In this document: one piece after another, positions 1 to 54,760 of the stretch
Position numbering within the stretch: position 1 is the first letter of the stretch
How the letters are laid out: each line of letters opens with the position of its first letter
Source: Cymodocea nodosa
Lineage: Eukaryota > Streptophyta > Magnoliopsida > Alismatales > Cymodoceaceae
Reading direction: 5' to 3'
NCBI GenBank assembly: GCA_036874045.1
Contig: CM072347.1
Location: 4,714,501 to 4,778,500 of the forward strand
Length of the DNA stretch: 64,000 nt
Notes under the pieces: model-generated
Database searches by the model: none
What the model saw: the letters and a program-made list of their open reading frames with translations, nothing else
What the model was told of the DNA's origin: nothing
Position numbers and translations under genes: made by a program

Positions 1-2398
1 CATAGATCAAATGCTAGAAAAATTAGCAAGGCAAGAATATTTTTGTTTCTTAGATGGGTATTCAGGATATAACCAAGTCCTAGTAGCATTAGAGGATTAA
101 GAGAAAACAACTTTCACCTGTCCTAATGGAACTTATACTTTTAAGAGAATGTCATTCGGATTATGCAATGCACCAGCTACCTTTCAAAAGTGTATGTAAG
201 GCATATTCACTAGAATGATTGAAGATTTTTTAGAAATATTTATGGATGATTTTACTATTTATGGAACTTCATATGAAGTGTGTTTAAACAATTTAGACCA
301 AGTATTAAAACGCTGTGTGGAAAAAAGTATGGTTCTAAATTAGGAAAAATGTCACTTCATGGTTAAATAAGGAATAGTCTTGGCACATGTTTCAAAGAAG
401 AGGTTGGAAGTAGATAAAGCTAAAATAGAAGTAATTTCTAATCTACCAGAACCTAAATCAGTAAAAGATATTAGATCATTTCTAGGACATGCTGGATTTT
501 ATAGAAGATTTATTAAAGATTTTAGCAAAATAGCTAGACCTTTAACTAATCTATTAAAAGATGTCTCATTCAACTTTGATAAAAATTGCAAAGAAGTATT
601 TTTCAAGCTTAAAACTAACTTTATTTCAACTCCTATAATTCAAGCACCTGATTGGAGCCATCCATTTGAATTAATGTGTGATGCATCTGATTTTGCTGTA
701 GGAGTAGTGTTGGGACAGAAGATAGAAAAATATCCTAGAGTGATTCATTATGTAAGTAAAACCTTAAATGATGCTCAAGTTAATTACACAACTACTAAAA
801 AAGAGTTGTTAGCTGTTGCGTTTTCCTTAGAAAAGTTTAGATCATATCTGATTGGAGCTAAAGTGATAGTATACATGGATCATTCAACTTTAAAACACCT
901 AATAGTAAAGAAAGAGACCAAAACTAGATTGATCCGATGGATATTATTATTACAAGAATTTGATCTAGAAATTAAAGATAAAAAAAGTTGTGAGAATGTA
1001 GTAGCAGATCATTTATCAAGATTACAAATAAAAAATCAAATATTAAAATTAAGGATAATTTTCCTGATGAACAATTAATGACCATCAACACGATGCCTTG
1101 GTATGCAGACATAGTTAATTACTTAGTTACTGGTTTAACACCTAAGGATTGGAATAGACAGGATAAGAAATTGTTCTTTTCAAGAGTAAAGTATTACTAT
1201 TGGGAAGACCCATACTTATTTAAGAAATGTCCTGATCTGGTTTTAAGGAGGTGTGTTCCAGAAACTAAATATCAAAGCATATTGTCTTTCTGCCATGACC
1301 AAGCATGTGAAGAGCATTTTGGTTTAGGGAAAACTGCTACTAAAATTCTGCAATGTGGATTTTATTGGCCAACACTATTCAAAGATGCTCATAAATATTG
1401 CTTAAGTTGTTTAAGATGTCAACAACTAGGAAGAATATCAAAGAGAAATATGATGCCTCTTAATCCTATTGTTGAGGTTGAAATATTTGATGTGTGGGGA
1501 ATAGATTTTATGGGTCAATTTCCTATGTCTAATCAATTTAATTATATATTGTTGGAGGTGGATTATGTATCTAAATAGATAGAAGCTATTCCTACAAAAA
1601 CTAATGACAACAAAGTGGTAATACATTTTATAAGAATTAATATAATTACTAGATTTGGAATACTTAAAGCTATTATTAGTGATAAAGGAACTCATTTCTG
1701 TAATAGAAGTATTGAAGCCTTAATGAAGAAATATGGAGTAAATCACAAAATTGCAACATCATATCATCCGCAAACAAGTGGACAAGTAGAAAATGCAAAC
1801 AAACAAATTAAGTTAATCTTAGAAAAAGTAGTAAATTCTACTAGAACAGATTGGGCTAATAGATTGATAGATGCACTTTGGGCTTATAAAACTGCTTATA
1901 AGACAAGCTTAGGTATGTCACCTTTTAGGCTAGTATATGGAAAAAGTTGTCATTTACTACTTGAAATTGAACATAAAGTTTATTGGGCATTAAAAACTCT
2001 GAATACTAATTTAAATCAAGTTGTTTAGAATAGAAAAATACAATTGATTGAATTAGAAGAATTTAGGAATGTAGCTTATTCGAAAACTATAAGAGAAAAA
2101 GAGAAAATGAAGTTTTGGCATGACAAAAAGTTATTCCAAAAACCTTTAAAATAGGACAAGAAGTATATCTTTACATGACTAGACTCCATGACCATTTAGG
2201 AAAATTAAGATCTAGATGGACATGACCTTACATAGTTCGAAATATTTATCCCTATGTAGCTATTGAAATTGAAAATCCTAAAAATCAGAATATATTTAAA
2301 GTAAATAGACAAAGACTTAGATCTATTTTAAAGATACCAAAAAGTTCTTTTGGAATTATAGAAGAAGTAAGAACAGAGGACTACTTGAGCTTTAGTTA
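1..2398 (+). pseudogene. Athila-type pol fossil (RT, RNase H, integrase)
   Basis: Polyprotein that in the living family copies the RNA into DNA and inserts it into the host genome. RT begins at the window edge; the catalytic FMDD box is at about 239-250. RNase H follows from about 660 (LMCDASDF motif near 672). The integrase zinc finger (HHCC type, CHDQ...CLRC) lies at about 1290-1425. The core domain starts near 1495 with DVWGIDFMG, continues with ISDKGTHF near 1675, and has the [13 protein letters not shown] helix near 1770. The C-terminal part ends with the RLRSIL-like strand and an acidic tail. The wording of the integrase ([20 protein letters not shown]) is typical of Athila. The 5' end is outside the window. 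Broken, roughly ten breaks. The same gene is seen inverted at 28097-31650. Confidence 0.88.
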
Positions 2399-2439
2399 GT
2401 AAGAAATTTTCTAAATATATATATATATAGATATAAACC

Positions 2440-2760
2440 TTATTTAAACATAGTCACGGTTCAACCGAAAGAAATTATCAGTTTTATCGAAACATATATT
2501 AAAAGAAAAAAATCATTGCGATTCAACAGACAAGATCTATCAATTTGACTGAAACATAAAAACATAAAAAAATCTATATATATTAAGTAAAAATGTCAAT
2601 GTTACCGAAGTTTAGTATCGATTCAACTGATAGAGAAAAAAAGAAAATATTTAATTTTGGTTCAATCAAGGAATATAACGGTTTGACCAAAAAATTTTAA
2701 AATGTTGAAAAATTAAGAATCGATTAGACCGAAAATTCTTCGGTCTTGACCGAGGTAAAA
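2440..2760 (+). repeat. Degenerate CGGTT-GACCGAA motif array after integrase
   Basis: About ten loosely spaced short motifs of the kind CGGTTCAACCGAA, CGGTTTGACC and TCGGTCTTGACCGA, many of them partly palindromic, in AT-rich spacer between integrase and ORF3. The same array, inverted, occurs in element C at about 27740-28060, so it belongs to the family and is not a local accident. No coding capacity is seen. Confidence 0.6.
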
Positions 2761-2807
2761 AGTATTATTATATGTATTTTTATTAGATATAACTTTATGG
2801 AAAGTCT

Positions 2808-2956
2808 GTTGAGTTACACTTAATTCAACGAACTTATTCTGTTGAGTCTAGGATAAGTTAACGAACTTACCCCATTGAGTTAACTATAACTCAACAGAGT
2901 AGCATAGTTAAGTCCATGGACTTAGTCCGTGGAGTTAACCATAATTCCACGGATGA
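2808..2956 (+). repeat. Inverted-repeat array (GAGTTA/TAACTC type) upstream of ORF3
   Basis: Cluster of short inverted repeats: CTGTTGAGTTA, TTCAACGAA, CATTGAGTTAACTATAACTCAACAG, and CCGTGGAGTTAACCATAATTCCACGG. Several pairs could form hairpins with arms of 9 to 13 bp. The matching array in element C is at about 27540-27690. The remaining stretch 2957-3113 is a short leader with no feature I can support before the ORF3 start. Confidence 0.7.
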
Positions 2957-3113
2957 GAGAGCGAGAGTTTTGTGTGGGAAATAACCCGATTACCCACCTA
3001 AACTTAGAGCTTATTTATACTTAACTTAGGGTTTGGGGGCATTATCTGCAGAATCATTTAGAACTTAGACCAGTAGAGATCAGAGCGATTCCATTCCGTT
3101 GCGTAACTCCACG

Positions 3114-5360
3114 ATGAGGAAGATGACACCCAAGTTCTAGGAAAATGTAGTTGACACGTCAGAATTTCTTAAAGATTTAGAGAAATGGAACACAAGACAG
3201 AAAATAAGGAATACAACAAGGGAAAAAGTACTACAAAAGGTAGAATCTGACATTTTCTACTAGAGGAAAGTGTTAGTAGATTTGGGTATACAAATACCTC
3301 AGATTATGGAAACGAGAATAAAAGTAGCTATGGAAGTTGTTGTAAGTAGAGAGAGAAGAATCAGGCCAAATGACGAAGTTGCCCTAGAGCTAATCCAATG
3401 CAAGGCTAGATTATAGTTTTTATGAGAAATTGCTGGTTGTGCAAGGGGTGAAATTAGGCAGCAGCAACAAAGGAAAGAAAATGAAGAATAGGCAACTGAA
3501 GAACAAGAGAAGCCGATTCTTGAAAGACCTGTCCTTGAGGAACAACAGCCTAGACCTTTTGTTCCACCACTAAGGCCGTTAGAAAGAGCAGCAATTTTGG
3601 GGCCTTCTATTGAGGAAGAAATAAGAGAATTTCAAGAACTGATTCAAATTGGAAAAGACCAAGGAGAACTAGAAGAGTTGGCAGTAGCTATAGCACATCT
3701 GGTGTTTGATGTATGGTGCAAAAATAGGGCTATAGAAAAGTTGAAAGCCCAATACAAAATTAAAGTTGAACAGCATCAAGAAGCCACTACTAGACCTACT
3801 GCAAGAGGAGCTGAAGCTAGTCCTTCGAGACCAGTAATTATGGAAAAAGTTAAATAGGAAAAGCCAGTACCTGTGGCTCAAAGGCCTGTAGAGCCTATTT
3901 TTGTAGATTTAATCTCAAAAGAAGAAGAGAAAGACTAGGCACAATTAATCAAAAGAAGGAAAGGAAAAGAGATAGTGCTTGAACATCAAGAAGAGATTAA
4001 ATCTAAGATGCAAATATCAATAGGGCTTGTAGAGCTGATTTTTGTAAACCTACTACCCGATTCTGAGGATGAGCAGGAGCAGCAGCAGCAAGAGCAAAGA
4101 GAAGAAGAAAATCAAGTTGAAACTAATATGCAACCTGTACAAGCAGAAGAAACAGAAATTAGGGTAGAAGCTCATTTACCTATGACTCCATCCCAATCTG
4201 CCACAGAATTAGAAAGAACAGTGACAATGCAGATTGGTAGTCAGGAGGATGAAGAAAGAGAAGAAGCTGGACAAGAGCATATGGAACAAGGAAGGAATGA
4301 CACAACAGATTCCACTGAAGAGGGAGAAACTCTTCAGCAAATTTTGGAAAGCATTCAAGATAGAGTGGAGAGTTCTGCCAACTCTCCACCGTAGATAGAA
4401 GTAGAAGTAAAAATGCAGGAATCTTCGGAGCATTTTTAGCAAATTCAAGTTCAGCACACGGAAGAGGAAGTTCAAGAACAAACCCCTCTAGAGCAACAAA
4501 TTCACATTCCTGACCCGATTGAAACAATAGTTTTAAATGAAGTACACTTTTGGAGTTAGGAAGCATATAATAAATACCAAGAGATTAGGAGTTATGATAT
4601 CATTTATAGTAGACCAGTAAATTGGGACGGGATGCAAGAAATTAAGGATATATTTGAGTTCCAAGGTCTACTACAGTTTATTTCTCAACAGAGAGGGCAT
4701 GCAGTATATGAGAATCTAGTACCCTACTTTTATGCAAACTTAAGAGAAGGAGAAAGTGGATTAATTTCTAACGTGGAGCAAGCTGATGTACAGATAACAC
4801 CAGAGCTTCTCCACAACATTGTAGGATTGAAAAATGAAGGACTAGAAATTCTAGAAAGCACAACTGCAGTCGAGTGGATAGAACAGATCATAAAAGATTA
4901 TTTAGCTATCAATCCTGGTGTGCCATTATTAAATAGACTAAAGCACTTAAATGATAAAGCACACATGATAGCTCACATTTTAATTAAGAATGTCTACCAA
5001 CGACAAGGCCATGATATTGAATTAAGTCAGTTTGTCAAATGGGCCATATATGCAATTGTGAATAGAATTCAGATAAATTAGTCTGTAGTTTTTATCTCCA
5101 AGCTGAGAGCAGTAAAGAAGAAACTATTTTATAGAGATCTAATTCCATTGCTGATGGTGGATAGTATGGATTTCACGAAATGGACATCCAAAAGGATAAG
5201 ATCTAGAGCCATTTCCGTGAAAGAATATAGAAATTATGCCGCTGCAGAGATTGCTGAACCTTTTGGAAACATTATTGGAGCTATAGAGAGGACAAATCAA
5301 TTAGAGGAACAATTAGAAAAACTCTAGAAGGAAGTAGATGAACTTAGGAGAAAAGACTAA
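3114..5360 (+). pseudogene. Third ORF (ORF3, env-like slot) of Athila-like G1
   Basis: Large gene downstream of pol, opening at an ATG at 3114 and closing at 5360 (about 750 codons in length). The N-terminal half is charged and probably coiled coil, followed by a Glu/Gln-rich acidic stretch near 4060-4380. The part at about 4632-5240 is a conserved globular domain with FQGLLQF, ITPELL, GLKNEG and NRIQIN motifs. I see no signal peptide or transmembrane segment, so the name env-like describes position only. The domain resembles what databases call a putative plant transposon protein, a label I recall but could not check. The domain matches ORF3 of the copia elements D and E in this window. Broken, about ten breaks. 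Element C carries the other copy at 25124-27373. Confidence 0.75.
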
Positions 5361-5814
5361 ATTGTATTGTTCGTCTACATGTATATATTTGTATGAAAAA
5401 TATCTGATTGATTGTAATGTAAACTATTCATATAAATGAATGTATGTTTTTCAGATGTTTTTGCATTCGTGTTTGAGAATGATGTAATGGATGAACTATC
5501 TTGAATATTATATAATTGTTTGAACAAGATGCAAGATTGTTTAAAAGATATACAAATTTGCTGAATGATAGGATTAAATGCAAAATAACTGGTTAATGCC
5601 TGAAAATATCTACATGCTGCAAAGTAAAATGTAAATTCTGCATAACATGAAATGAACTGCAAGTTAAATATTCATATAATGTTCAGATTTAAATGATTTT
5701 TAAATAGAACACTTCATTAATGACATGTATTTAACTTAATTTAAGTTGACAAAATGCAGGAGAGAAAAAAATATAGAAGTTAATACGAGGAGTAAGTTTT
5801 AGAAATTTTCTTAA
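5361..5814. other. AT-rich spacer between ORF3 and unit 1
   Basis: No gene, LTR end, primer site or convincing polypurine tract could be recognised. There is one purine-rich run at about 5757-5785 (GGAGAGAAAAAAATATAGAAG-like), which might be a decayed polypurine tract. This stretch is the only observed link between the Athila ORF3 and the gag plus F-box unit, so it matters for deciding whether the two form one element. Confidence 0.5.
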
Positions 5815-6010
5815 TGTTAACTCAACGAAGTAAGTTTGTTGAGTTAACCTTAACTCCATGAGGTCAATAATATAATATAAGGTCATTCCGTTGAGTTATA
5901 GATAACTCAACGAAGTTAGTCTGTGGAGATAGCAACAGTAACCGAAGCTAGTCCATTGAGTTAATTGTAACTCAACGAGGTTAGTTCATGGATTAAGCTA
6001 AACAGTTATT
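5815..6010 (+). repeat. Inverted-repeat array upstream of the unit 1 gag
   Basis: At least six GAGTTA/TAACTC half-sites, for example TTAACTCAACGAAG with TTGTTGAGTTAACC, CCGTTGAGTTATAGATAACTCAACG, and CCATTGAGTTAATTGTAACTCAACG. The right end of the same array is kept in unit 2 (from 56424). Confidence 0.7.
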
Positions 6011-6083
6011 CTTTAAGCCACAAACGAAACTTTGTGGGTTTAGCGATTACTGAAAATTTGAAATTAGAAGTGGCACACTTACC

Positions 6084-6093
6084 TATAAAAATA
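6084..6093 (+). promoter_or_regulatory. TATA-like box upstream of the unit 1 gag
   Basis: TATAAAAATA inside the conserved stretch ACCTATAAAAATAGGAA, about 260 bp before the gag ATG. It is kept in unit 2 at 56542-56551 although surrounding bases have drifted. This is a candidate core promoter for the gag/F-box transcript. No transcript evidence is available here. Confidence 0.45.
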
Positions 6094-6298
6094 GGAACCA
6101 CACTACACGCTACAAGACATGTTCTTGCAACGAGATTCATATACTTTATGGACGTGCATTATAAATATAGAACAGAATGTTACTTACGAGTTACTAGTAC
6201 TTGTGGAAGAAAAGGAAATTCGTTGGGGAACTGGAAGGAGAAGCAGCTGATTCAACTTCATCTATCACCAACTATTTACTGAATATAAAGCTTCAGAT

Positions 6299-6307
6299 TG
6301 GTATGTA
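6299..6307 (+). promoter_or_regulatory. Candidate 5' splice site before gag
   Basis: G|GTATGTAATTAAT, a good plant donor with GT at 6301, 44 bp upstream of the gag ATG. Unit 2 has the same element with GT at 56759. Paired with the acceptor-like site at 7880-7881, it would remove gag as an intron of about 1.6 kb and place the F-box ORF first on the mRNA. Spliced expression of a downstream gene is known for LTR elements with a third ORF; here it is inferred. Confidence 0.4.
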
Positions 6308-6344
6308 ATTAATCTTCTGCTATTTTACTTTATGTTAAGAGTTT

Positions 6345-7690
6345 ATGAGCACATGGATTCGTTCTCCTAGCACTAAACGATTAGTAAGAACACCTACATA
6401 GGATTATTCAACATAGAGATGTACTGAAATATTTTCTGAATTGGACTTTAACAAAATCCTTAGGGGTGTAGCTAACCTTTCTTTAAAAGAGAGCGAAGAT
6501 ATGGCTGCTCTAGTAGAGAAACCATTAGGGGAAATTTTGTATCCTGAATTAGTTGATGAACCTTCATGTATTCGATTGCCAAACTTTGAGGGAGATAGGT
6601 TTGAATTGAAATCTAATTATATTAGTCAATTGCCACATTTTCATGGATTAGAAAGAGAGGATGCCTATTATTTCCTTAGAGAATTTAACGAAGTTTGTCA
6701 AATGATGAAAATGTCGAACATAAACTTAGATATATCCCTTTTGCTTTAAAAGACACAGCTAAGAGATGGTTATATACTCTATCGCTTCATTCAATTTCTA
6801 CATGGACTAAATTTTACCCTATTTTTCTGGAAAAATATTATCCAACACATCAAACAATTAAAAAGAAAAAGGAAATATTAATGTGTAGCAAAAAACAGGG
6901 AGAATCATTCTGGAAATATTTTGAAAGATTTAAAGATTTACTAACTCAATGTCCACATCATGTAATGATTACAACACAATTAATAGGTATAATTTATGAA
7001 GGCATAGATGTTTCAACGAAATCTTTATTAGAATCTACTTATCAGAATGGATTTTTAAAACCATGTAGTGAAGAAGCATATGCATATTTAGAAAACTTTG
7101 CAAAAAGAACAACACAGTGGGAAAACTCAGCTAAAGCTATTATAGATAAAAGAATATTGCCAAGGGGAATGCATGAAATAGATTCAAGCACTATGCTTGA
7201 AGTTAAATTAACTGAATTAACAAAGAAAATAGAAGAGTTATCATTAAATCAAAAGCTAGTAGAAAAGAATGTAAACTTTAATGATCTAGATATTATTTAT
7301 GCTACAAACTAGAAAGATAACTTTGGAAATTCTTATAACCCTAATTAGAGAAATCACCCAAATTTATCTTGGAGAAACAACAATTTCCAAGGAGGAGAAA
7401 ATATAAATGAGAAAAATATAAGTTATGAAGCTTTAATTGAACAAGGATCTAGAATAGAGAAATTAGAAAAGATAATGCAATAATTAAACAACCATCTAGA
7501 TCTTGTATTTGGAAATGCTGCAATTCAAAATCAAAATATAAATAGAAATATACCCCCTAGACAAAAGGAATCAATGGAAGTTAGACCTACTGGAGGATTG
7601 CCAATGCAAGCAGTACCTAACCCTGTCAACAAAACTGTTAATGAAATTAATACCTCCTCTAGGAGGGTAGCTGAATTAAATAGTATAATT
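6345..7690 (+). pseudogene. Athila-type gag fossil of unit 1
   Basis: Capsid/nucleocapsid polyprotein gene. It opens with ATG at 6345 (MSTWIRSPSTKR). The family signature LPNFEGDRFELKSNYISQLPHFHG is at about 6576-6650, followed by the ED-YYFLREFNEVC helix. The retrotransposon gag domain runs through about 7240 (WTKFYPIFLEKYYP, FWKYFERFKDLLTQCPHH). The tail carries an FGNSYNP and LSWRNN-type segment near 7320-7380, a short coiled coil (SRIEKLEKI), and a GGLPMQAVPNP segment near 7590. No CCHC knuckle is seen, nor the CITLRSG gag-pol linker found in element C. The best match in the window is unit 2 (56803-58140). Broken, a few breaks. Confidence 0.85.
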
Positions 7691-7780
7691 GAAGTAATTA
7701 TGAATTATATAGTAAGTAGAAAAATATTAAAAAAAATAGTAAGTTTAATTATAGTTTGTAGTATCGTAGAGTTATTACTT

Positions 7781-7807
7781 AACTCAACGAACTTAGTCCG
7801 TTGAGTT
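7781..7807 (+). repeat. Hairpin between gag and F-box ORF, unit 1
   Basis: AACTCAACG and CGTTGAGTT form 9-bp perfect arms around a 9-nt loop. The unit 2 counterpart at 58254-58280 has perfect 12-bp arms. Followed by a second pair (TAACTCCACGAGG). Confidence 0.7.
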
Positions 7808-7849
7808 ATGACCTAACTCCACGAGGGTGTGAAGTAGCTATGTTAATTT

Positions 7850-7881
7850 TGACTCTGTTAATTTTTGTTTATGTTATACAG
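7850..7881 (+). promoter_or_regulatory. Candidate 3' splice site before the F-box ORF
   Basis: A T-rich tract ending in GTTATACAG with AG at 7880-7881, 11 bp before the F-box ATG at 7893. It is identical in its last bases in unit 2 (AG at 58353-58354). Its distance to the ATG and conservation in both copies fit an acceptor that exposes the F-box ORF as the first ORF of a spliced mRNA. This is inference. Confidence 0.45.
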
Positions 7882-7892
7882 AATCACAACTG

Positions 7893-9027
7893 ATGGAATT
7901 GATGAAATTACCACTAGATGCACTGAGGGAAGTACTGAGTAACCTGTCAGCTAAAGATCTATGCAGATTGTGTTGTGTATCAAAGGAAATCAAAGACTAT
8001 GTCAGAGAAAAATATTTTCATAGACTACAAGCTGCAAAAATGACTAAGATTAGAGATGGATTTTTATGGAAGTCATTTAATCGTAGTTCAATCAGCTATG
8101 AATATTTGAATATGAAAGAAACTGTTGGAATTCCACCTAATACATTAGAAGGAATAGATCATATTATGGGGATGGATGAAGGATTAATTATATACAGAAC
8201 CAAACCAAGGTATGCAATTCTATTACCAGACATTTTGATTAGAAATCCTATCACAAGAGAAGAATGAAACATAGGAAGGCCTAATAGATATGAAGTACCA
8301 ATTGAAAATTGTGGGTTAGCTTTAATATTTTATGATAAAAATTTGACCATTCCTAAAAAATTATATTATTGGAGACCAACTGGAAATTGGGATGAAGATT
8401 TATGCTTAAGTGTATAATTTTTTGAATTGATCTTGGACTGAAAATACTATGATATATCTAGGACAGAAAGCATTAATTAAAAGCATACATGTCATACTTG
8501 ATGGATATATATATCTAGTCACAGATATATCAATTGCATTTAGATATGATTTATACATAGTAAGCATAGACAATTATGATGACTTTGTAGAAATATTGCC
8601 TATACCGAGTGATATAGCTAAACCACCATCTTCAGAATATGATCAAATTCAGTTAGGAATGTGGTATAATGAATATGATGATCCTACTTTATGTCTGATA
8701 AGATAGTGGGATGAATTGAGGACATTTCAAATATGGATTATGAAAGACCGAAATGAATGGAAGTGAGAAGAAGAATATATTGAAATAGATGTAGAAATAG
8801 AAACAGCTACATTATCTTGAAATAGAAGAGGATCCCTTTTTGCATTTCATTTCATTAATGGTAATACACTTATATTTAGTATTGATAACATACTATAAGT
8901 TTACAAGCTAAAAAGGAAAGCAAACTGCATTAAAACAGAATTAATAGCAAGAAGAATTATGGCTAAAAAGTTTGCATGGACTGACATGTTTATTCCATTT
9001 GTTATTACTTTTCAATCATGTTTTTAA
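7893..9027 (+). pseudogene. F-box protein ORF carried by unit 1
   Basis: F-box proteins are substrate receptors of SCF ubiquitin ligases; the F-box binds SKP1 and the C-terminal part selects the target. The ORF opens MELMKLPLDALREVL and continues SNLSAKDLCRLCCVSKEIKDYV, a clear F-box over residues 5-45. A C-terminal F-box-associated-like region follows: GIDHIMGMDEGL, ILIRNPITREE near residue 118, DGYIYLV near residue 208, and a VYKLKRK strand close to the end. The full length is about 378 residues, usual for plant F-box/FBA proteins. It lies between a retroelement gag and the element's 3' purine tract and LTR, and unit 2 has a second copy in the same place, so it is cargo of the element. This copy is broken, with several breaks. 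The host parent gene is not in the window. Confidence 0.8.
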
Positions 9028-9480
9028 ACTATGATTCTATGCTTTTAATGTTGTGTGTATTCTACATTTTTTTAGAAAAAGGAAAAGAAAAAAAAAATTT
9101 GTTTTAGTTTTATTCTATAAGAAAAACAAAATATCAATCCAGTTTATTGGTATCTATTCTGGGAAACCAATTGGCTTGCTTGTGAGCCACCAAAGGCATA
9201 GAAGCCTAGGTTCCACACAAGACACTGATTTAACAAGTTATGTTGTTATATATTCTGCTTTTATTTGTGAATGAAAAGTTTTTCAGAATCAAAAATTGGA
9301 AGATATTGAAGGAGATACAAAAGGACAAGGTATGTAATTGATTACTTATCTTGAATTTACATTTAAACTCAGTTCTTGGAGTTATTCATTAACTCTACAA
9401 ATTAAGTTTGTTGAGTTAGGTGCTAAGTCAACGAAACAATATTCATGCCTGCTACAATTACTATATTTATTGTAAAATCT
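9028..9480 (+). other. 3' flank of F-box ORF, noncoding
   Basis: AT-rich noncoding DNA also present in unit 2 (59503-59907). It holds a short conserved block (GGCTTGCTTGTGAGCC and AGGTTCCACACAAGACAC, about 9172-9225), a donor-like GGTATGTAATTGATTAC near 9329, and GAGTTA/TAACTC half-sites at about 9383-9440. I see no gene in it. Confidence 0.5.
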
Positions 9481-9522
9481 TTTACATTGAGGACAATGCA
9501 AAATGTAGGTATGGGGGGGAGG
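9481..9522 (+). promoter_or_regulatory. Athila-style internal purine tract
   Basis: ACATTGAGGACAATG followed by TAGGTATGGGGGGGAGG. A GAGGACAATG block plus a G-rich purine run is a familiar mark downstream of the coding region in Athila and related plant gypsy elements, where it may act as an additional polypurine primer. It is conserved in unit 2 at 59908-59950. Here it follows the F-box ORF, which therefore sits where pol and later genes would be in an autonomous element. Confidence 0.6.
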
Positions 9523-9814
9523 TAATTAAAGTAACAGCCATGTAATTTTGTTAATTAGAGGAATTAGAATGGTACTACAAAAGTTCTGTGGAAATTGAAA
9601 ATTTTTTTTATGAATTTGGTGTAACTATCCGATAATTGAAACTGTAAAATTTTTAAAAACTGTAACTGCTTGAATGTTATATAAGATGCTATAGAATTTT
9701 ACTATTCACACAAATCTAGATATAGTATCTTATGTTTTTGCTGAATTTTATGAGTTTAACATTTTCACAATTTTAAAAAGAAATCAAAATGCTTAACTAA
9801 AACTCAGTAAATTA

Positions 9815-10670
9815 TCTAAAATCCTAGAAGAGCTGAAATGTTGATTTTTGGATTAAATGAAATACATATGATCAAGGATACATTTAATTTGAGTGATTAA
9901 ACTTGTAGAATGATTTATGTGTAGATCTTATTAAACTACAGAAAAAGTATGAGCTTATTGATATGGATTCATATTTTTAGTAAATAATAGAAGCAGGACT
10001 ATATGAGATTTTTGTTTTATTGCATTTGTATTATTGAAATACGTATATATACTGTGAATGTTTGAAAAAAAAAAAAAAAAACTTTGAGAGTTTATTGACT
10101 TGTTTAATCACGAGCCTTTTGTACTTGAGTAGATAAGTATGTAAGGATTGTTGACTTGAAAAAGGACTCTTTAAATCTAGCAACCTAAGATCTTGATCAG
10201 ATTTGGGATTGTTGATTGAAAGTTCGATACATGGGTACACTAGAAAGCTCTTGTATGATTCAAGCTTGTCAAATTAACTTTTAAAGTACAAATATGCATA
10301 TACTGTTCTGAAAAGATACAAGTGTTTTGTGAAATACAGATATCTTTTGAATCAAGTATATTTTCTGTTATCTAAAATTGCTGAAGTATGAATCTAGAAT
10401 AGACTTTTGAAGTTGTTTATTTGAGATACAATTCTTTATTCTACTTGTCTTAATCATATTGAATTGGATTGTGTTTTGATTCGTATGTAGTTGAAATTTA
10501 TTCTGGAAATCATATTGGAAAATTTAGGATGACAGATGCTGAAAAGAAGAAAAAAAATGATAATATAATTAACACCTATGTGATGCTGATGTATTTTGTA
10601 TGTAATTTACATATGTTCTAAATATATTTGCAGTTTGAAGAGGAGAAAATAATGTTAAAACAGATTACTG
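9815..10670 (+). other. Conserved noncoding module, unit 1 copy
   Basis: Noncoding block of about 0.85 kb that recurs in unit 2 (60270-61110) and, in the same sense relative to its host element, between pol and ORF3 of the copia elements D (37280-38125) and E (48340-49185). The best conserved core is at about 10083-10275 and includes CCTTTTGTACTTGAG, AGATAAGTATGTAAGGATTG, CATGGGTACACTAGAAAGC and TTGTATGATTCAAGC. An A-tract of 17 bases at 10064-10080 sits just before the core. No ORF of note in either strand. Bases 9523-9814 and 10671-10795 on its sides are AT-rich, with nothing I recognise. Confidence 0.75.
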
Positions 10671-10795
10671 AAACATATAGAATATCGATATAGTTATCTA
10701 AATTTATGTATTCTAAAGAAGAACGAAGTGAAGAATTAATTCTAGCACTTTAGAAAGACCAACTAGTTAGATCTTAGTTTGCTAAGGGACTAGCA

Positions 10796-10815
10796 AAATT
10801 TAAGTATGGGGGAAG
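10796..10815 (+). promoter_or_regulatory. Polypurine tract of unit 1
   Basis: AAATTTAAGTATGGGGGAAG directly before the LTR start TGTTTAG. The TTTAAGT-TGGGGG form is typical of Athila-group 3' polypurine tracts, the primer for plus-strand DNA. The same tract occurs at 61236-61255. Confidence 0.75.
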
Positions 10816-12950
10816 TGTTTAGAATGAAAAAGTGTATAATATTAAGGGTTAAATGATGGTTAATTGCATAATATTTAGCTTATCATATGAGAATTAAGCC
10901 ATTATGTTATAATTACACTATTATATGCCTTAATGAAAGAATCTACATAAGTTTTGGGAATTAATGTTAATTTAGTACATTTTTGAACTGTCAAAAAATT
11001 GCAGGTTGTGAAATTCTTAAGTATCTGAATTTTCTGTTATTTCGAAGAGTTATAATGCATGTACCGGACAGTTATGTTTTTAACAATAGAAGAATATTTT
11101 ATTATTTCCTAGAGTACATGTGTTGAAACCATAATGCATGACTTAAGTGGATTTTCGATAGGTTATCTGTTAACTATCCGAAATGTATTTGGGCATCGGA
11201 TAGTTAGGTTCTTAAGTGTCCGAAATATCTTAACTTGTTAAGTTAGAATTATGTACGTGTTGAATTTGAATGCTTTAGTATATCACGTGAGCTGCACATG
11301 TTTAACTCGTTAAGTTAGCATAATTGTACGCGTTGAGTTACATGAATACACACTAAGGTAACACGTTATGTTAGTAGCTTATTTCTCTATTACACATGTG
11401 TTTTTAATGTTTTAAGTTGTCACGTATTTTCCATGTGCGTTCAATAATGAAAATCGAAGAGTTAGATAACTGTTCGAGTTTTATAAAATGACTAATGAAC
11501 AGATAAGTTTTCTTGTTCAGTCACGTGTTTTGCAGGTGTAAAAACTCGAAGAGTTACAAATAAGTGTTAGAGTTTTTACAGGACTTAAAGGATAAGTGTT
11601 CGACTAAAAAAAAGACTAATATGCCATTATAGCAGTTACAGAAACAGGACATTCAAAGGAAAACTACGATTGCATATATCACGTAGGAATTTGCTCATGG
11701 AATGAAGAAGAAATCACCATCGTTGATATGAATGAAGGAAATCCAACCGATCATCGAAGCAGAAGCAATTACTATTGAGGAAACATAAAAGAAGAGGAGA
11801 AAAAATGAAGGTGTGTGTGTAGAGGTGGAGGACCGTGCTAACTATAGGAAGCGTCGGAAGTTCCCTAAAGCTCCACACCAACACCACCATAATCACCAAC
11901 CATCAGAGGTCTGTGAGGATACTTTCCTGATGTTAGGTCGATTCTGATCCAAACACGGTGCCTGACAACCACTGTGAGGAGTGATCGCGTCGAGAGAAGG
12001 GAAGCCATTTTCACCAAGCACTGACTCATATCTCAGGAGATCGTAAAGCTTCTAGCCTTGGTTTTGGGTTTATGCTAGTATGCTGAAGAGGAGATCATCT
12101 TACAATTCTAGAGTCGCGATTCTATAGGGAGAGGAGGCAGGATTGTAAGTGATTAAGTTTTCAGTGGTGTAATCGCATCGCATGTAGTGACAGAAGTATT
12201 TACTATCGATAGAGATTTTTACATTTTACCTTTTGCCCATTTTCATGAACATATCAAAACAAAAATACCAAAAACAACAACTTATTTGTGTTTACATTTA
12301 GTATTTAAGTGTTGTACTGTTTGTTTTGTATCGTGATTAATGTTATCATTATCAATATTGTGAATGTTTTATGTTTGTTTGATTCAGAAAATAGAAAATA
12401 GTTTTACAGTTTACTAAAATTGATTTGTTCTAGATACTTAAAGATTTAATGGTTACTATTTGAAATATCTGAATGTTAGTGTTTCTTAATGATAAATCTA
12501 ATATTAACTAGCATTAAATAGCTTAATTGATGTTATTTACAATTTGTGGAACTACCCAACGGTTAGTTGAATTCCTCTATAAATAGCAGTATTAAACTGG
12601 AAAGATAGGCTCGTGGAGTTAACTCAAGTCCATGAGGTTAGTACGTTGAGTAAGCCATAACTCCATGAACTTGGTTTGTTGTGTTAACTGTAACTCAATG
12701 GAGTGCTTACTAAACACATAAATTTTATTATTAAAATCGGAATAGTACACAATTCTTACTCAATCTCTATGAGATCGACCTATGTTTGCACAATAATACA
12801 ATATACACTGTGTACTTGTAGTTAAAATACAAATTGGAATTATTGTCTTATTTGTGTGAAAGGTTGTTTGTTTACTTCTAAAAGAAGTTATTGAGAATAT
12901 AAGCAAGTTTAAGATTTAACTTTTTACAACCAAACAGAAATTAATAAAAC
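10816..12950 (+). repeat. LTR of unit 1 (3' LTR)
   Basis: Starts TGTTTAGAATG after the polypurine tract and aligns with the LTR of unit 2 (61256-63140) over nearly its whole length, ending at about 12950 where the alignment stops. It contains inverted repeats (about 11270-11360 and 12610-12700), CACGTG-containing segments, a GC-richer island (about 11690-12200), and a TATA-like TATAAATA at 12578-12585. The region is noncoding apart from a short His-rich ORF shadow. It abuts Sirevirus B remnants on the right. Confidence 0.7.
11690..12200 (+). other. GC-richer island within the LTR
   Basis: Visibly richer in G and C than its surroundings and conserved in unit 2 (61830-62400). It includes CACCAACACCACCATAATC-like His codon runs and TGTGAGGATACTTTCCTGATG, and ends in AGGAGGCAGGATTGTAAGTG (a donor-like GTAAGT at 12145). 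It could be an untranslated leader or a captured host fragment. A short reading frame exists in unit 2 (61974-62159), but I do not call a protein. Confidence 0.4.
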
Positions 12951-13083: not shown

Positions 13084-13618
13084 TGTTAGGATCGGTAGAC
13101 TCACCAGAGGGGGGGTGAATGGTGAAATTGTGTAACTTTTTATGTTCTTTTAATTGTTGAAACAAATGATTCAAATAGTAGTGAAATGAGATGAAATTAA
13201 ACGAATGCAAAGTAGTAAAGAAAGATAATACACAACAAGTTTTAGGTGGTTCACTAACTTGGCTAGTCCACCCCCAAGATTCACTTGGGCTTCACTAAGT
13301 GTTTCAACACTTACACACTTGCTTTCAAGTCAAAGCAAGAACCAACAACACAGAAGTTTTCAAGTATAAACTTCAGTAAACCAACCTCTAAAGTTTTCAG
13401 GTAAAAACTCAAACCAACAATTGAATGTAGCTTTTAGGTTGAAGCCACGAACCAACAGCTTGAATCTTTCAATCAGAGTTATGGTGCACAAAGCTTTTTC
13501 TGCAGTATGTCTTTAGTGTATGCTTCACTATTTGCAGACTTGAGTGTATTTGAAATTGGGGTGTAGCTCATTGTATGTAGTATATCTATTGTCTGTATTT
13601 TCCTCTCTTAAACCCCTC

Positions 13619-13629
13619 ATATTTATATC
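13619..13629 (-). promoter_or_regulatory. TATA box in the 3' LTR of A
   Basis: On the minus strand TATAAATATGAGGGG, kept identical in the 5' LTR at about 20559-20569. In the 5' copy it would drive the element's transcript leftwards. Likely core promoter by position and conservation. Confidence 0.55.
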
Positions 13630-14010
13630 AATGGTATAATGATCATATTTTTCTTGCAACGGATGTATTCTGTTGTACTTGGTAAATAATCAGACCTAAA
13701 TTTGGTAAGTTACCATTCTGTCTGAAGTTCAATAAGAAACCTTCCGAAAATCTTAGCCTTTCGGATGGTTATAAAAATAACTTACCGAAAAGCATCCATA
13801 ACTAGCTGATTCATCACTCATGTTCTGTTCTCTAAGTCACGTGAGGATTTTAAGTTGCTCACGTGTAAAGTCAAGTATTCAGAGTCTTGTATTTAACTTA
13901 TCGAAAGAGTTCCTGACTTTCGGATAGTTAACTACTGTAATTTTCCGAACTTTCATTTAAGTCTCCGACAGTTGTTCCTTCACAACTGCACGTGCATAAA
14001 AATGTAACTT

Positions 14011-14400
14011 AAGTTTTGGATAGTTAAGCCATAACTCACCGAAATTCTCTTGAGATTTCGGATAGTTATCTTTCTAACTCTCCGAAAAACCCATTTGAAT
14101 ATCTGTCTAGAATTCTGCACGTGGGAAATTCACTAACTTAAGTTTCGGATAGTTAAACCATAACTCACCGAAATTCTCTTGAGATTTCGGATAGTTATCT
14201 TTCTAACTGTTCGAAAACTTAAAAGATCTTCTTTTTGGAATTCTACACGTGGCAATTTCAATAACTTAAGTTTCGGATAGTTAAACTGTAACTTACCAAA
14301 ACTCTCTTTGAAATTTCGGATAGTTATCTAACTCTCCGATTTTTCCTTTTAAGTTTTCAACTACCGGCATCTCCATTTTGCACATGCGTAATAAAATGAC
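14011..14400 (-). repeat. Three tandem units of about 129 bp in the LTR of A
   Basis: Units start at about 14011, 14141 and 14269 (AAGTTTCGGATAGTTAAAC on the plus strand). Each contains two GATAGTTA/TAACT inverted pairs and a CACGTG or close variant near its end. The other LTR has the same three units at about 20950-21340, so they predate the insertion. Confidence 0.75.
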
Positions 14401-14928
14401 TTAAGTTCTAGAAAGTTATGCTTGTAACTTACCAAAAAACTCAAATAGTTATCTAACTCTCTGAAAAGAAAACTCGGATAGTTATCTAACTCTCCAATAA
14501 GTCCTTTAAGCTTCTGTTCTATATTTCTGCACGTGATTTATTAAATGACTTAAGTTTCGGATAGTTAGCCTTTCTAACTTTTCGATTTTCCTTTTTCTTT
14601 CGGATAGTTAACTCCATAACTCTCCGATCATTCAACCAACTTAACTGTCTGATTTAATAACTCTCCGAAGGCTTTGTAAAATTCGAATAGTTATCCTTCT
14701 AACTGTCCGATAGTCTTGCTTCTGTTTTACTCTTCGGATGCTTGAACCTGTAATTGTCCGATTTTACTGTAACTTGAAAGTATTATCATCTGGAACCTTC
14801 TCAATCTATTCGTCTGCTTGGAATTTGTTCTAACAGCCTTCTGATCTAATGTAGTACAGACTTAACTGTGAAATACAATATGTTTCCTCACATAGGTTTT
14901 GCATTATCAAAATACTCGGGTTCTAAGA

Positions 14929-14943
14929 ATCTCCCCCTTTTTG
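14929..14943 (-). promoter_or_regulatory. Polypurine tract of Sirevirus A
   Basis: On the minus strand AAAAAGGGGGAGAT, directly adjoining the 3' LTR. Further similar tracts lie at about 15069-15080, 15089-15100 and 15186-15198; several polypurine tracts before the 3' LTR are a reported habit of Sireviruses. Confidence 0.85.
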
Positions 14944-15326
14944 ATAATGACAAAAACCTTTACAATTATTTACATGTATTTCACTCCCTAGTGTATTACT
15001 ATACATTCAGTCACACAGAGAAAAATAAAACAAGAATTTATCAATACTATACTAACGTGGAGGGATTCCTCCCCCTAACTTTGAGCTAACTTCTCCCCCT
15101 ATCTGTGTGCTGATTTTTTCTTCTCTTTTAATAATTCTCTTTCAGTGCTTGCTGGAAATACTGTAAGTGACCAAATTTCCAAATTCTTCTCCCTCTTTTT
15201 GTCATTATATAAAAAGGTAATGACTGTAAAACTAAGTTTCTGTAAAACTGATATTGACTGTATCTTGCACGAGTAGGTTAGGAGAAAACAAGCTCCCATA
15301 TGGTGAGCTTGATAAAGAAAAAATAT
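14944..15326 (-). other. Spacer between polypurine tract and pol of A
   Basis: AT-rich, noncoding, with the extra G-rich purine tracts just described. No third ORF is present here, unlike elements D and E. Confidence 0.7.
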
Positions 15327-18300
15327 TTAAAGATCTTGTAAAGAACATATTCCTAGATTTCGTCTAATATGATTAAAAGTTGATTCATTTAAAGGTTTGG
15401 TGAAAATATCTGCAAGTTGATTTTCTGTTGGCACAAACTTAAGTGAGATGTCCCCATTTCCCACATGATCTCTCAAAAAATGATGTCTGATCTCAATATG
15501 TTTGGCTCTGGAATGAAGTACTGTATTCTTAGATAGATTGCATTGTTGTTGTCACAAAAAATGATTGAATTTTGAATTTTTAGTCTATAATCTGCTAGAG
15601 TTTGTTGCATCCAAAGGATTTGAGCACAACATAATCCTACTGCAATATACTCAACTTCAGTAGTAGATAAAGCTATACAATTTTGTTTCCTACTGAACCA
15701 TGAGATTAAAGAACATCCAAGTAGTTGACAAGTACCACTAGTGCTTTTTCTATCAGATTTGCTGCCTGCATAATCTACATCACTATAGCTTGTTAAAATC
15801 AAACTACTGTTAGCTGAGTAGAATAATCCGAAATCTTTTGTTCCTTGTAGATATCTGAAAATCCTTTTGACTGATTTCAAATGTGATTCCTTTGGTGATG
15901 CTTGAAATCTAGCACATAAGCATACACTGAACATAATATCTGGCCTGCTAGCTGAAAGGTATAACAGGGATCCAATCATACCTCTATATTGCCTTTGATC
16001 CACTACAACACTTGAATCATCCATTTCTATTTTAATGCTTGAACTCATTGGAGTATTTGCAGATTTGATGCTTTCATAACCAAATTTCTTCAACATCTCT
16101 TTGCAGTATTTTTCTTGGTTGACAAAGATACCATTATGCACTTGATGAATCTGTAATCCCAAGAAAAACTTCAATTCTCCCATCATGCTCATTTCGAATT
16201 TATTTTTCATCAAATTCTGAAATTCATGACAGAGATCTTCTAAAGTGACTCCAAAGACTATATCATTAACATATATCTGAACAATCAACATTTGCACATC
16301 AAAAGTTTTGATAAACAAAGTGTTGTCCACTTTGCCTATAGAAAAATTGTTTTTAGTTAAAATTTTTTTCAATTTCTCATACCAAGCTCTAGGTGCCTGT
16401 TTCAAACCATATAGAGCCTTTCTTAGTTTGTAGACATGATCCGACTTGAGTTCATCTTCAAATCCAGGAGGTTGTTTAACAAACACTTCTTCTTAAATTT
16501 CTCCATTTAAGAAGGCACTTTTCACATCCATTTGAAACAATCTTATCTTCATACTACTTGCAAAGGCAAGCAACATTCTGACAGCTTTAATCCTGGCTAC
16601 AGGAGCAAAAGTTTCTTCATAGTCAATACCTTCCTACTGATTGTAGCCTTGTGTAACTAATCGAGCTTTATTTCTGAGAATGTTACCTTCTTCATCTAAT
16701 TTGTTTTTGAAAATCCATTTAGTTCCAATGATGGATTTTCCTACAGGTTTTTCTATTAGTTCCCACACATTGTTTTTCTAGAACTGATTTAATTCTTCCT
16801 ACATAGCCATTGTCCAGTAGGTATCCTTACAAGCTTCATCTACTGATTTTGGCTCTATTTTTGACACAAATGTACAAAAATTGCAGATATCTTGTGCTTT
16901 GCTTCTAGTTTGTACCTCTTTAGATATATTTCCAATAATTTGTTCCTCGGGATGATCAGATCTAAACTTTCAACTGTTATGATTCTAATATCTATGGTTG
17001 AGATTCTGGTCTAACACTTGTGAATTGGTATTCTGCTTGCATTTATCATCTTCAAAGTATTCGTTTTCACTATCATTATTAATCTTCAGCTTTTTGAAAT
17101 TCTGGAACAGATCTTCATCAAACTGAACATTTATACTTTCCTCCACTCTTATATCTTCAGCAAAATATACTTTGTAAGCTTTGCTTCTAGAGGAGTAACC
17201 AACAAGTATGGCAGGTTCAGACTTTGCATCAAACTTGTCTTTAGCATTTCCTGTATTTAAGACAAAATATTTGCATCCAAAAGTCTTAAAATAGCCAACA
17301 TTTGGAGTTTTGTCAAACCAAATTTCAAAGGGTGTCTTATACAACATGGATCTAATATGAGTTCTATTGGAAATGTGACAAGCTGTTCCTACAGCTTCTG
17401 CCTAGAGAAATTTAGGTAGATCCGAGGCATTTAACATAGTTCTAGCCATTTCTTGTAATGTCCTATTTTTCCTTTCCACAACCCCATTTTGAGTAGGAGT
17501 TCTAGGACAGGAGAATTCATGCAGAATTCCAAATGAATTGCAAAGGTTTTCAAATTCATAGTTTTCAAATTCTCCTCCATGGTCACTTCTGATTTTCTTC
17601 ATTATTAGTTCCTTCTGATTCTAAACTCTTATGTAGAAATTCCTGAACTCATTGCAAGTTTCATTTTTATGTGTCAAAAATATTACCCAAGTTAATCTGG
17701 AGAAATCATCAACAATAACAAAGGTATATTTTCGACCCCCAAGACTTGATACTTGAGAATGACCAAACAAATCTAGATGTAGCAGTTCTAATGGCCTTTT
17801 GGTGGAAACAACATTTTTGCTGAGAAGAGCAGTTCTCTTCTACTTCCCTAGCATACACTCACTACACACTCTATCTTTCTTAAAAGTGAGTTTAGGCACA
17901 CCCCTAACAAGATCACCCATGGATAGTTTTTTGATTTTCTTCATATTGATGTGACCAAGTCTTCTATGCCACACCCAATCATCTTCACCAGTTGCTACCA
18001 AATAGGAATTGCTTGTAAAATTTTCACATGGAAAGTTTAATGTATATATTGAGTAATTTCTAATACCAGTAAATTTTGTTTCATTTGTGGCAGGATCAAT
18101 AATGTAGCAGTTTTTAGCATTAAAAGAAATAGTATAACATTTATCACATAATTGTCCTACACTTAACAAATTTTGTTTTAATCCATTTACATGCAAGACA
18201 TTCTCAATTATACCATTTTCAGATGTAATATTTCCTATTGTAGTTATTTTACACTTTTCATTATTTCCAAACTTAATAGATCCTAAACTTAAGTTTTTAA

Positions 18301-18360
18301 CTAAGTCAAGAAAGCTTTTCTTACCTGTCATGTGCTTTGAGCATCCACTGTCCACAATCT
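15327..18360 (-). pseudogene. Sirevirus A pol fossil (protease, integrase, RT, RNase H)
   Basis: Reading leftwards: protease with DSGCSKHMTG near 18350; the integrase HHCC finger (WHRRLGHIN...CSECMLGK) at about 17965-17840; the integrase core with SDHGGEF near 17590 and TPTQNGVVERKNRTLQEMARTM near 17500; the GKTP-type domain after it (FGCKYFVLNT, ILVGYSSRSKAYKVY) to about 17000; reverse transcriptase at about 16850-15950 with KALYGLKQAPRAWYEKL near 16415 and the IYVNDIVFG box near 16280; RNase H with the SYSDVDYAGSKSDRKSTSG segment near 15780 and LADIFTKPLN near the end. The stop is at 15327. The domain order protease-integrase-RT-RNase H defines Ty1/copia. Broken, several breaks. Confidence 0.9.
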
Positions 18361-19974
18361 ATTTAGTTGAACATTCTTGAAACTCCTTGTCACCCTGCAA
18401 ATCATACTGAAATTAAAGCTTTTGGTACCCAAATCTTCTTGGGTCCAGTAGAGTTAGTCCTTAAATCATTAAATCTATTGCCTCTTGGCAGCCACATATG
18501 ACCTGATCTTCGTTTGATGGCAAACACAGTGGTGCCATCTCTATAAGATCGAATCACTCCACCACAATAAGGTATTTCTTGTGGTGTAGCATACCCTAGG
18601 CCATATTTATTCCCATTTGATCGTTGAGATCCTATTATTTTATTTAATCCTTTTTGTCCTTGAGTAAATTTACATATAGTATCTTTCAAATCTGATATAG
18701 TAGTTGATAGATTTTTATTTCATCTTTTAATTCACAGTTATCACAACTATACTTATCTAAATTTGATTTTAGATTCCTATTTTCAACTATAGTTGATTCT
18801 AATTCAGCAAATGAATTTTCTAAGCAATGATTTAATCTTTTAATTTCTTTCTTAAAATCTCTACACTTCACATATAAATTATCTATAGTAGATAGAAGAC
18901 TGTTTATGTCTAAATCATCATGCTTATTTTCTAAACTAGAGGAAGTAGAGCATACCTCTTCTACTGCAAAACAAACATTGGCTACAGCTTCATCTTCTGA
19001 ATCTGATAAACAGCTTAAAGAGCTACTGTCATCCCACATAGCTTTGAGAGCCATCTTCTTTTTGTCCTTCAACCTCTTCTTCTTATCTCCTTGATCCTCT
19101 TCTTCTTATCTCCTTGATCCTCTTCTATCTGAAATGGATAGAAGGTCTGTATGTGCCCTTGCCTTTTATATTTGAAACATGTAGGAACAAATCTTTTAGA
19201 GTAGCTGGGCTTATTCTTTTTCTTCATGAACTTTTTGAAATTTCTTGCCAGCAACATGATCTCATCATCATCTGAGCTTGTAACTTCTTCTATAGATGGA
19301 AATGCTATTTCCTTTTTCTTTTCAACTTTCTTTACAACAGTTCCTTCTTGCTCTTTCCAGTCCTTCATCTGAACTTCGTAGGCCAGAAGATTGCCCAACA
19401 ATTCTTCAACTGTGTAGTTGTTAAGATCCTTGGAATCTTGAATAGATGCGGACTTCTGTTTCCACTCAACAGTTAAGCTCCTTAGGATCTTCTGTACATG
19501 TTCACGTGAAGAGAACTCCTTTCCCAAGCCTTACAGACTGTTAATGATTTCAGTAAATCTAGAAAACATTTCAGTTATGTTTTCATTATCATTCATTTTA
19601 AATAGTTCTAGTTTTCTTAAAAGAATACTGATTTTTGTATCCTTAACTTGGCTTGTACCTTCATGAGTAACTTGAAGGATTTTCCAAGCCTCATGAGCAG
19701 ATTTACATGTAGATACTTTATTATATTGATCAGCAGTTAGTGCACAATAAATGACATTCAACCCTCTAGCATCCAACTAGATGATTTTCTCATCCTCCTC
19801 AGACCAGTCCATAACATCACTAGTTGGAAGTGTAGTTCCAAGAACAACAATCTTCCAGAGTTTAACATCAGAACTCCTAAGGAAACACTCCATTCTATTC
19901 TTTTAATAGTTATAATTGGAGCCATCGAATAGGGGAGGTCAGTGGATGTTTTGTCCCTCAGCAAATTGAGTCAT
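18361..19974 (-). pseudogene. Sirevirus A gag fossil
   Basis: Capsid/nucleocapsid gene starting at an ATG at 19974, about 40 bp downstream of the primer site. Near the start it has a PPLFDGSNYNY-type motif. The UBN2-type gag domain (NVIYCALTADQYNKVSTCKSAHEAWKIL) is near 19750-19680. The central segment is a charged stretch. A zinc-knuckle-like segment (FVPTCFKYKRQGHIQ) lies near 19180, and a long acidic and coiled-coil tail (DSEDEAVANVCFAVEEV, EIKRLNHCLENS) at about 19070-18690. A linker with NKYGLGYATP near 18600 leads into pol. Long gag tails with coiled coils are typical of Sireviruses. Broken, a few breaks. Confidence 0.88.
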
Positions 19975-20011
19975 AAATCCAGATGGTTAAATCTTATGAA
20001 GGATTAACCAA

Positions 20012-20023
20012 GCTCTGATACCA
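20012..20023 (-). promoter_or_regulatory. Primer binding site of Sirevirus A
   Basis: Minus strand TGGTATCAGAGC, complementary to the 3' end of initiator methionine tRNA, two bases from the 5' LTR. Standard for Ty1/copia. Confidence 0.92.
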
Positions 20024-20025
20024 AT

Positions 20026-34174: not shown

Positions 34175-34189
34175 ATCTCCCCCTTTTTG
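34175..34189 (-). promoter_or_regulatory. Polypurine tract of Sirevirus D
   Basis: Minus strand AAAAAGGGGGAGAT adjoining the 3' LTR. Additional similar tracts at about 34444-34458 and 34469-34484. Confidence 0.85.
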
Positions 34190-38125: not shown

Positions 38126-38375
38126 CACTTAATCAAAATTTTAGGATTTCATAAGAATTTAACGTTTTTCATTGACGCTTCCATTTAAAATTTTGAAAAC
38201 CATTAAAATTGACAAAATATGTAAAATCAATAAGACACTATTATAATTTTACAATAAATACATAGTATCCTATGCAGCAATTTAGATATTACTCAGATAT
38301 TTATAATAAGTATATAATATCTATGAGGTAAACAACATCATCAATATTATTTATCTTTTATGGAGTTTAAGCATT

Positions 38376-54748: not shown

Positions 54749-54760
54749 GCTCTGATACCA
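54749..54760 (-). promoter_or_regulatory. Primer binding site of Sirevirus E
   Basis: Minus strand TGGTATCAGAGC, complementary to initiator methionine tRNA, two bases from the 5' LTR. The leader 54563-54748 between it and the gag start is noncoding. Confidence 0.92.

Follow-up and report, generated by a model that had tools for sequence, protein, structure and literature searches.

Why should a gypsy element and a Ty1/copia element, members of superfamilies that are usually treated as separate lineages, carry the same noncoding kilobase? The question is raised by a stretch of Cymodocea nodosa DNA (the window; 64,000 nucleotides, positions 4,714,501 to 4,778,500 of contig CM072347.1), which has a GC content of about 30% and is crowded with LTR elements. 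A sequence-only reading had pointed to four related blocks in it, two in Sireviruses of the Ty1/copia superfamily and two in gypsy-like units, and had proposed that a cassette was exchanged and its core kept by selection. The explanation that we prefer, though we give it rather less than an even chance, is that a 3' linker cassette of about 1 kb was exchanged, that its centre is constrained, and that its core would be a cis-acting element of the sense RNA.

The shared module and its host elements

The module is about 0.98 kb long. Its two gypsy copies lie at 9780-10767 (U1) and 60228-61207 (U2) on the + strand, and its two Sirevirus copies at 37206-38182 (element D) and 48267-49250 (element E) on the - strand, as delimited by blastn and nhmmer and, for U1, also by alignments. 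Both blastn and a four-copy profile confirm the blocks where they had first been noticed, and the sense of the module relative to its element is identical in all four, as had been claimed. Between-family identity by blastn is 76-78% over 0.8-0.9 kb: 77.2% for U1 9856-10719 and D 38111-37238 (E=3.7e-177), 75.7% for U1 9836-10717 and E 49198-48302 (E=2e-161), 76.5% for U2 60255-61147 and D 38161-37252, and 77.8% for U2 60283-61073 and E 49198-48386. Within families, self-comparison of the window gives 89% (gypsy) and 87% (Sirevirus) identity for the stretches that hold the module. Chance similarity might be suspected in sequence that is about 70% AT, but pairwise E values of 1e-161 to 1e-177, together with a 17-base core word that occurs at 4,547 sites (2,269 + 2,278) in the 375-Mb genome versus 0 for its reversed control, make it negligible. 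The core words quoted earlier are also present, and an 18-mer out of the core has four matches in the window (at most three mismatches) where 0.06 are expected.

The right edge of the module is sharp near 10767, and the sequence past this point is at the level of shuffles (p=0.90); the left edge fades, with some homology remaining left of 9780 (p=0.012). Alignments define a centre (9880-10279) and a gap-free core (10084-10290, + strand in U1). By the four-copy profile, the window contains only these four copies (next match E=0.51), and the copia element F (13084-21868) is without the module. An antisense gene in the core was considered and rejected: in U1, U2, and D the frame stays open over 80, 57, and 68 codons, respectively, but in E it does not, its third-position excess is slight and absent from some pairs, and the three antisense frames of the module have no Pfam match at E<5. 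On present evidence, the core antisense frame is not coding.

The gypsy copies had been read as separate units, 1 and 2. This reading does not hold: each is the 3' part of a giant gypsy element. The idea that they form a non-autonomous family is likewise overturned by genomic copies. In the window, the first element occupies 1-12936 (+), as indicated by continuity at genomic loci and by comparison of LTR ends, with its 5' part beyond the window; unit 1 runs on from the pol and ORF3 at 1-5967. Its order is pol, ORF3, gag-type ORF, F-box ORF, PPT-like motif, module, second PPT-like motif, and LTR, all on the + strand. The RNase H and integrase ORF pieces (371-2025) match PF17917 (371-1075) and then PF17921 (994-1575), which is the gypsy-type order, and the pol piece at 1579-2025 is homologous by blastn to 28100-29077 (rve). 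A broken ORF3 region (3481-5383), whose piece 4560-5078 matches PF20167 below the cut-off, is followed by pieces of a gag capsid-type ORF (6417-7309; PF03732 on 6689-7309) and a broken F-box ORF region (7833-9499; PF00646 and ORFs). A homologue search found 26 relatives of the gag-type ORF, 25 of them with PF03732, and none of the F-box ORF. Inspection of motifs places the two PPT-like sequences at 9498-9517 and 10793-10812, the second adjoining the 3' LTR (10816-12936). The putative start of this LTR is the TG after the PPT, and its end is set by where LTR copies part; an earlier candidate end, 12905, proved to be an indel when LTR copies were compared. Unit 2, with F-box ORF pieces at 58366-59106 and 59110-59499 (+), is the 3' part of another gypsy copy that ends at Sirevirus E.

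The two halves of this element are joined elsewhere in the genome. Twenty loci were read around the closest gypsy-type cores in the 374.6-Mb assembly. In 11 of them, 5384-5967 leads into the piece that starts at 5968, and ten of these also have ORF3; the remaining nine are interrupted, deleted, or fused. An upstream pol is reached in the 10-kb stretches L033 and L035, and before L034 by way of L043. The latter has a 5' LTR 92% identical to the 3' LTR over 1,644 bp and, in order, a weak zinc knuckle, protease, RVT_1, and rve, so that reverse transcriptase precedes integrase as in Ty3/gypsy elements. These loci indicate that the host is one giant gypsy element. Its gene order is unusual in that a PF03732 gag (6417-7309 +) lies 3' of pol and ORF3. 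An Athila element would have a gag capsid domain 5' of protease, and at that place the one locus read (L043:4468-5613) has only the weak zinc knuckle (E=0.05). We take the PBS and PPT of the element to resemble those of the Athila lineage and do not claim membership. In loci L026, L037, and L040 and at 63097-63186 of the window, the gypsy 3' LTR gives way to sequence that we take to be primer-site-like, a hint of tandem elements or of a longer LTR form.

Elements D (32528-45176) and E (43474-56419), both on the - strand, were delimited by self-comparison and by LTR and motif checks. Each has both LTRs, and the 5' LTR of D is common with E; the pair (32528-56419) thus forms a tandem with one common LTR, as after unequal recombination, and its outer LTRs are flanked by different bases. 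Two of the pol pieces of D (38379-41540 -) match PF22936, PF13976, and rve, which are protease-side and integrase domains of copia type; the other pieces were assigned by nucleotide homology to the pol of F, where RVT_2 matches. A copia-type gag (PF14223) is found on E. ORF3 pieces lie at 34680-36863 (-) in D, from ORFs, and at 45807-47921 (-) in E, from ORFs, Pfam, and ORF3 comparison. A solo LTR of element F sits at 49412-51199, within the 3' part of the E pol. At 34177-34184 and 45179-45186 (-), the octamer AGGGGGAG is followed by AT and the TG of the 3' LTR. A Met-type primer site is present as an exact word by the 5' LTR of E (54760 -); D has no exact one after its 5' LTR. Element E has three PPT octamers (45179, 45406, and 48377), of which that at 48377-48384 lies within its module, and D has the terminal one only. 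Sirevirus is the best fit for both elements, as judged by domains and junction. The octamer is held by 9/11 Sirevirus modules and 0/20 gypsy modules, and three gypsy copies carry it at the first PPT-like motif. The placement of the module originally described stands: pol, module, ORF3 in the Sireviruses, and F-box ORF, module, PPT, LTR in the gypsy element.

Genomic occurrence and probable exchange

The module recurs in these same frames across the genome. Eighteen sites taken from the listed 17-mer matches, all on contig 1, comprise 11 in a gypsy frame (F-box upstream), 6 in a Sirevirus frame (pol upstream), and one in a shorter stretch (L069), a Sirevirus-type module whose upstream flank is unread. 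Eight Sirevirus-type cores, chosen by core similarity, all have ORF3 downstream, and seven have pol directly upstream; in L046 a Sirevirus-type module is joined to another piece. Sense agrees in 20/20 loci around gypsy-type cores (with the F-box or LTR as reference), 8/8 Sirevirus-type core loci, and 17 of the 18 listed loci, the upstream side of L069 being unread. The frames read at genomic loci, with the homology in the window and the 4,547 core-word sites, establish that the cassette common to the two superfamilies is real and genome-wide, and show that a noncoding 3' linker of about 1 kb has become a standing part of both the giant gypsy element and the Sirevirus, both of high copy number. 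Outside this genome, a 17-mer has 14 matches in 257 billion prokaryotic bases, where chance matches are expected, and four scans of viral contigs found no relative.

One alternative to exchange is that a third-party sequence, such as a SINE, a MITE, or a piece of a host gene, inserted independently in both families. Its source would lie outside both families, and the fading left edge would suit it. However, no solo copy occurs in the window or at the 17 listed sites with readable flanks, the sense is constant, ARAGORN detects no tRNA, Rfam gives no match at gathering scores, and the three antisense frames match no Pfam family. For the core alone, a SINE-like insertion fails in addition because homology spans both of its flanks. 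Independent insertion is thus very improbable.

The sequence comparisons instead give good support to exchange of the cassette between the superfamilies, which would have passed by recombination of co-resident elements. We infer this route from the existence of two fused loci, though neither proves the event. In L032 (2214-7648), a Sirevirus LTR-gag-pol runs into a gypsy module and LTR; in L024 (reverse strand, 1-4689), a Sirevirus pol-module-ORF3 runs into a gypsy gag-F-box-module-LTR. The simplest cause of the fusions themselves is nested insertion plus deletion.

The direction of exchange is tentatively from gypsy to Sirevirus. Two loci in gypsy frame are, in their best local match, slightly closer to the Sirevirus module than to that of U1: L063 (82.0% vs 78.8%) and L064 (81.3% vs 80.3%). 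In an unrooted tree of the centre from 49 copies, L064 falls within the gypsy clade and L063, whose F-box piece is 82% like that of the window, branches off between the Sirevirus clade and the main clade of gypsy copies with support 0.98. Only the centre tree was used, since another insertion right of about 10370 makes the branch of L063 meaningless in trees of the whole module or right part. Two deep lineages in gypsy frame against one in Sirevirus frame lean to a gypsy donor, although this rests on a single copy in an unrooted tree. ORF3 gives a weak hint in this direction too: PF20167, reported in a sunflower Athila (PMC11728184), matches ORF3 of the gypsy element better (4.5e-7) than that of the Sirevirus (1.3e-3), although neither match reaches the curated cut-off. 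With 31% identity over 173 residues, the ORF3s of the two elements are assigned to one family; a homologue search found one relative, and the predicted fold is unusable (mean pLDDT 39.8).

Other parts are shared as well. A segment of the gypsy LTR (11232-11374 +) is 76% like the Sirevirus LTR at 33615-33766 (-) by blastn and alignment, and this segment of about 150 bp holds G-box-like CACGTG words. Two related types of palindromic motif have 57 and 72 near-matches, where 0.28 and 1.05 are expected. A motif scan places these boxes at 2807-2953, 5811-5914, 7764-7824, 9408-9434, 33386-33884, 36977, and 48059 and in the LTRs of F and G; they occur in LTRs of both gypsy and copia elements and also directly before ORF3 or the F-box ORF. 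Those of D and E, in the LTRs and upstream of ORF3, are mostly of the type without CGG-CCG, with CGG-type half-sites at 44410, 44508, and 55752.

The better-kept centre and the fold of the core

A core of about 190 bp had been described as much better kept than its flanks. The middle is indeed better kept, but a sharp 190-bp core is not supported: the best-kept part found by a segment scan, matched by 0/300 permutations, is nearer 400 bp (9866-10268), with the gap-free 207 bp inside. In the four window copies, fixed between-family sites number 32/398 in the centre, against 92/452 to the right of it and 25/94 to its left; the within-family differences of the window pairs show no significant difference between centre and flanks (p=0.66). 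The fixed-to-within contrast between centre and flanks is significant (p=4e-4), with the boundaries of the centre set after the profile had been seen; the same contrast for the 207-bp core alone is not (p=0.13). Applied to within-family differences, the scan picks out a weaker low segment at 10228-10485 (p=0.013).

A larger sample of 20 gypsy and 11 Sirevirus copies, 26 of the 31 picked by core similarity, agrees. Fixed sites are 38/393 in the centre, 122/476 on the right (p=8e-10), 31/119 on the left, and 12/207 in the core, so that between-family differences per site are about 2.7 times rarer in the centre than on the right. The between-family branch is 0.165 for the centre and 0.682 for the right. 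A further set of 10 gypsy and 7 Sirevirus copies comes from the 17-mer list; all have the 17-mer, whose own bases do not enter the count. The ratio of centre to right is 0.53 (0.51-0.55) for comparisons between families, as against 0.77 (0.67-0.95) for those within them. L063 was left out for its other insertion, and L062 is too short to provide a right part. Since within-family diversity in this sample is also lower in the centre, low mutability could explain part of the effect. Nevertheless, the proposal that selection holds the middle is supported by the between-family deficit in the centre and the lack of one in the within-family window pairs. The centre is likely constrained, and the pattern fits constraint during the active life of the elements, acting on the central 400 bp or so, with decay after insertion.

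The main rival to constraint is that the centre was exchanged or converted again more recently, in which case the cassette would be a passenger, free of selection. The strong contrast between centre and flanks in between-family divergence is what such an event would leave, and the fused loci L024 and L032 make repeated contact plausible. On the other hand, divergence changes without a clean step, diversity within families is lower in the centre too in the 17-mer sample, and no family-switching tracts appear at diagnostic sites. Of up to 213 such sites, gypsy copies show the allele of the other family at 0-9 and Sirevirus copies at 1-5, except for D, whose 18 fit an early branch. A second exchange is therefore unlikely. 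Conversion was also considered for the alleles shared by U1 and D and by U2 and E, and was rejected: recurrent deamination is enough to account for them, since C/T or G/A transitions make up 9 of the 11 discordant sites and most of the nine lie in a CG or CHG context.

Whether the constrained centre acts as RNA was judged from folding. Compared with dinucleotide shuffles, the sense core has z<-1 in 31/31 copies, with means of -1.89 and -1.90 in the two families (z of -2.48 and -1.58 in single core tests), while means are -0.41 for the left neighbour, -1.02 for the antisense core, and -0.79 for the right neighbour. The core is thus more stable than shuffles in both families, but modestly so, among copies that are related and with a gypsy right flank that is nearly equal (-1.70, against +0.85 in the Sireviruses). 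A window at 10366 gives -4.1 in U1 and -3.1 in U2 but -1.3 in D and -0.3 in E, and the mean of the 215-nt window nearest the core is only -1.26. Other stretches thus show the signal as well, which counts against an RNA role; that both families agree at the core favours it over the right flank as the structured part. Shuffling the columns of the core alignment gives z -3.4, an overstatement because dinucleotides are ignored. Covariation, which had been expected of a structured RNA, did not bear the idea out: 0 pairs are doubly changed in at least two of the 31 core copies, with little variation to judge from, and a four-copy fold has one doubly changed pair of 59. These results are no more than suggestive of an RNA element in the core.

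Possible roles and relation to known systems

If the core is such an element, it would be a position-independent, cis-acting part of the sense RNA, serving, for example, the packaging, export, or processing of genomic RNA. On the folding and substitution patterns, this role is possible, if on the doubtful side. What follows the module differs, ORF3 in the Sirevirus and the 3' LTR in the gypsy element; this argues against its serving one particular downstream gene.

The position of the module also bears on a role at the level of DNA, as an enhancer or internal promoter that in Sireviruses would drive ORF3. An internal promoter has been suggested for the interval between Sirevirus pol and ORF3 (PMC2829016), which is where the module lies, with palindromic boxes between it and ORF3. 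A splice-donor-like word (10135-10142 and homologues) is present in 16/20 gypsy and 9/11 Sirevirus modules. However, the gypsy module has no ORF after it, only about 50 bp, the PPT, and the LTR, and a simple scan for TATA sequences lists no site common to the four copies of the window. We consider such a control region rather unlikely. A wider version, in which module, ORF3, and palindromic boxes form an exchangeable control kit and gypsy and Ty1/copia elements answer to one trans factor, is quite improbable. ORF3 itself might then act on the boxes, as VANC does on VANDAL motifs, and the two superfamilies would share one regulatory or anti-silencing circuit.

For the exchanged and constrained cassette that we prefer, a regular, sense-oriented, homologous kilobase in both superfamilies would show that cis-acting parts can cross the border between them and survive by function. 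It would also be a concrete case for the published suspicion that Sirevirus 3' ORFs have different sources, and the 4,547 core-word sites offer material for tests of function and history.

Sireviruses are known for the AGGGGGAG-AT-TG junction, multiple PPT octamers, and palindromic RM boxes in the linker (Bousios et al. 2010, PMC2829016). Elements D and E resemble them in the octamer junction, the Met-type primer site of E, the boxes in LTRs and by ORF3, and the octamer within 9/11 modules. The RM boxes were called Sirevirus-specific within the Ty1/copia set compared there, whereas similar boxes are found here in a gypsy element as well; a linker block homologous with gypsy is not among the features described in the available text of PMC2829016. 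A literature search likewise gave no noncoding block shared by gypsy and copia in the titles or abstract openings of the matches listed. The extra ORFs of SIRE elements are thought to be fast-evolving or of different sources (Neumann et al. 2019, PMC6317226). The weak PF20167 match of ORF3 in both hosts recalls the 3' ORFs of SIRE and Athila/Tat (PMC6317226, PMC11728184); unlike in those reports, as far as their available text extends, a concrete ORF and noncoding block are common to both superfamilies here.

Retand also has a long region between POL and the 3' LTR with extra content, but it carries antisense TRP28 ORFs (PMC11963269), while the three antisense frames of the module are without a Pfam family. 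The noncoding parts of VANDAL likewise hold short motifs at high density (PMC5735166), but this is a DNA transposon, with a binding protein, VANC, that has been tested. Chimeric sequences are known from rye, where 4 of 70 cloned sequences had gypsy and copia segments, one more had DNA transposon segments as well, and nested insertion plus recombination was proposed (PMC5632726). The rye chimeras are fragments; the block described here is regular in two full families, keeps its sense, and has a better-kept centre.
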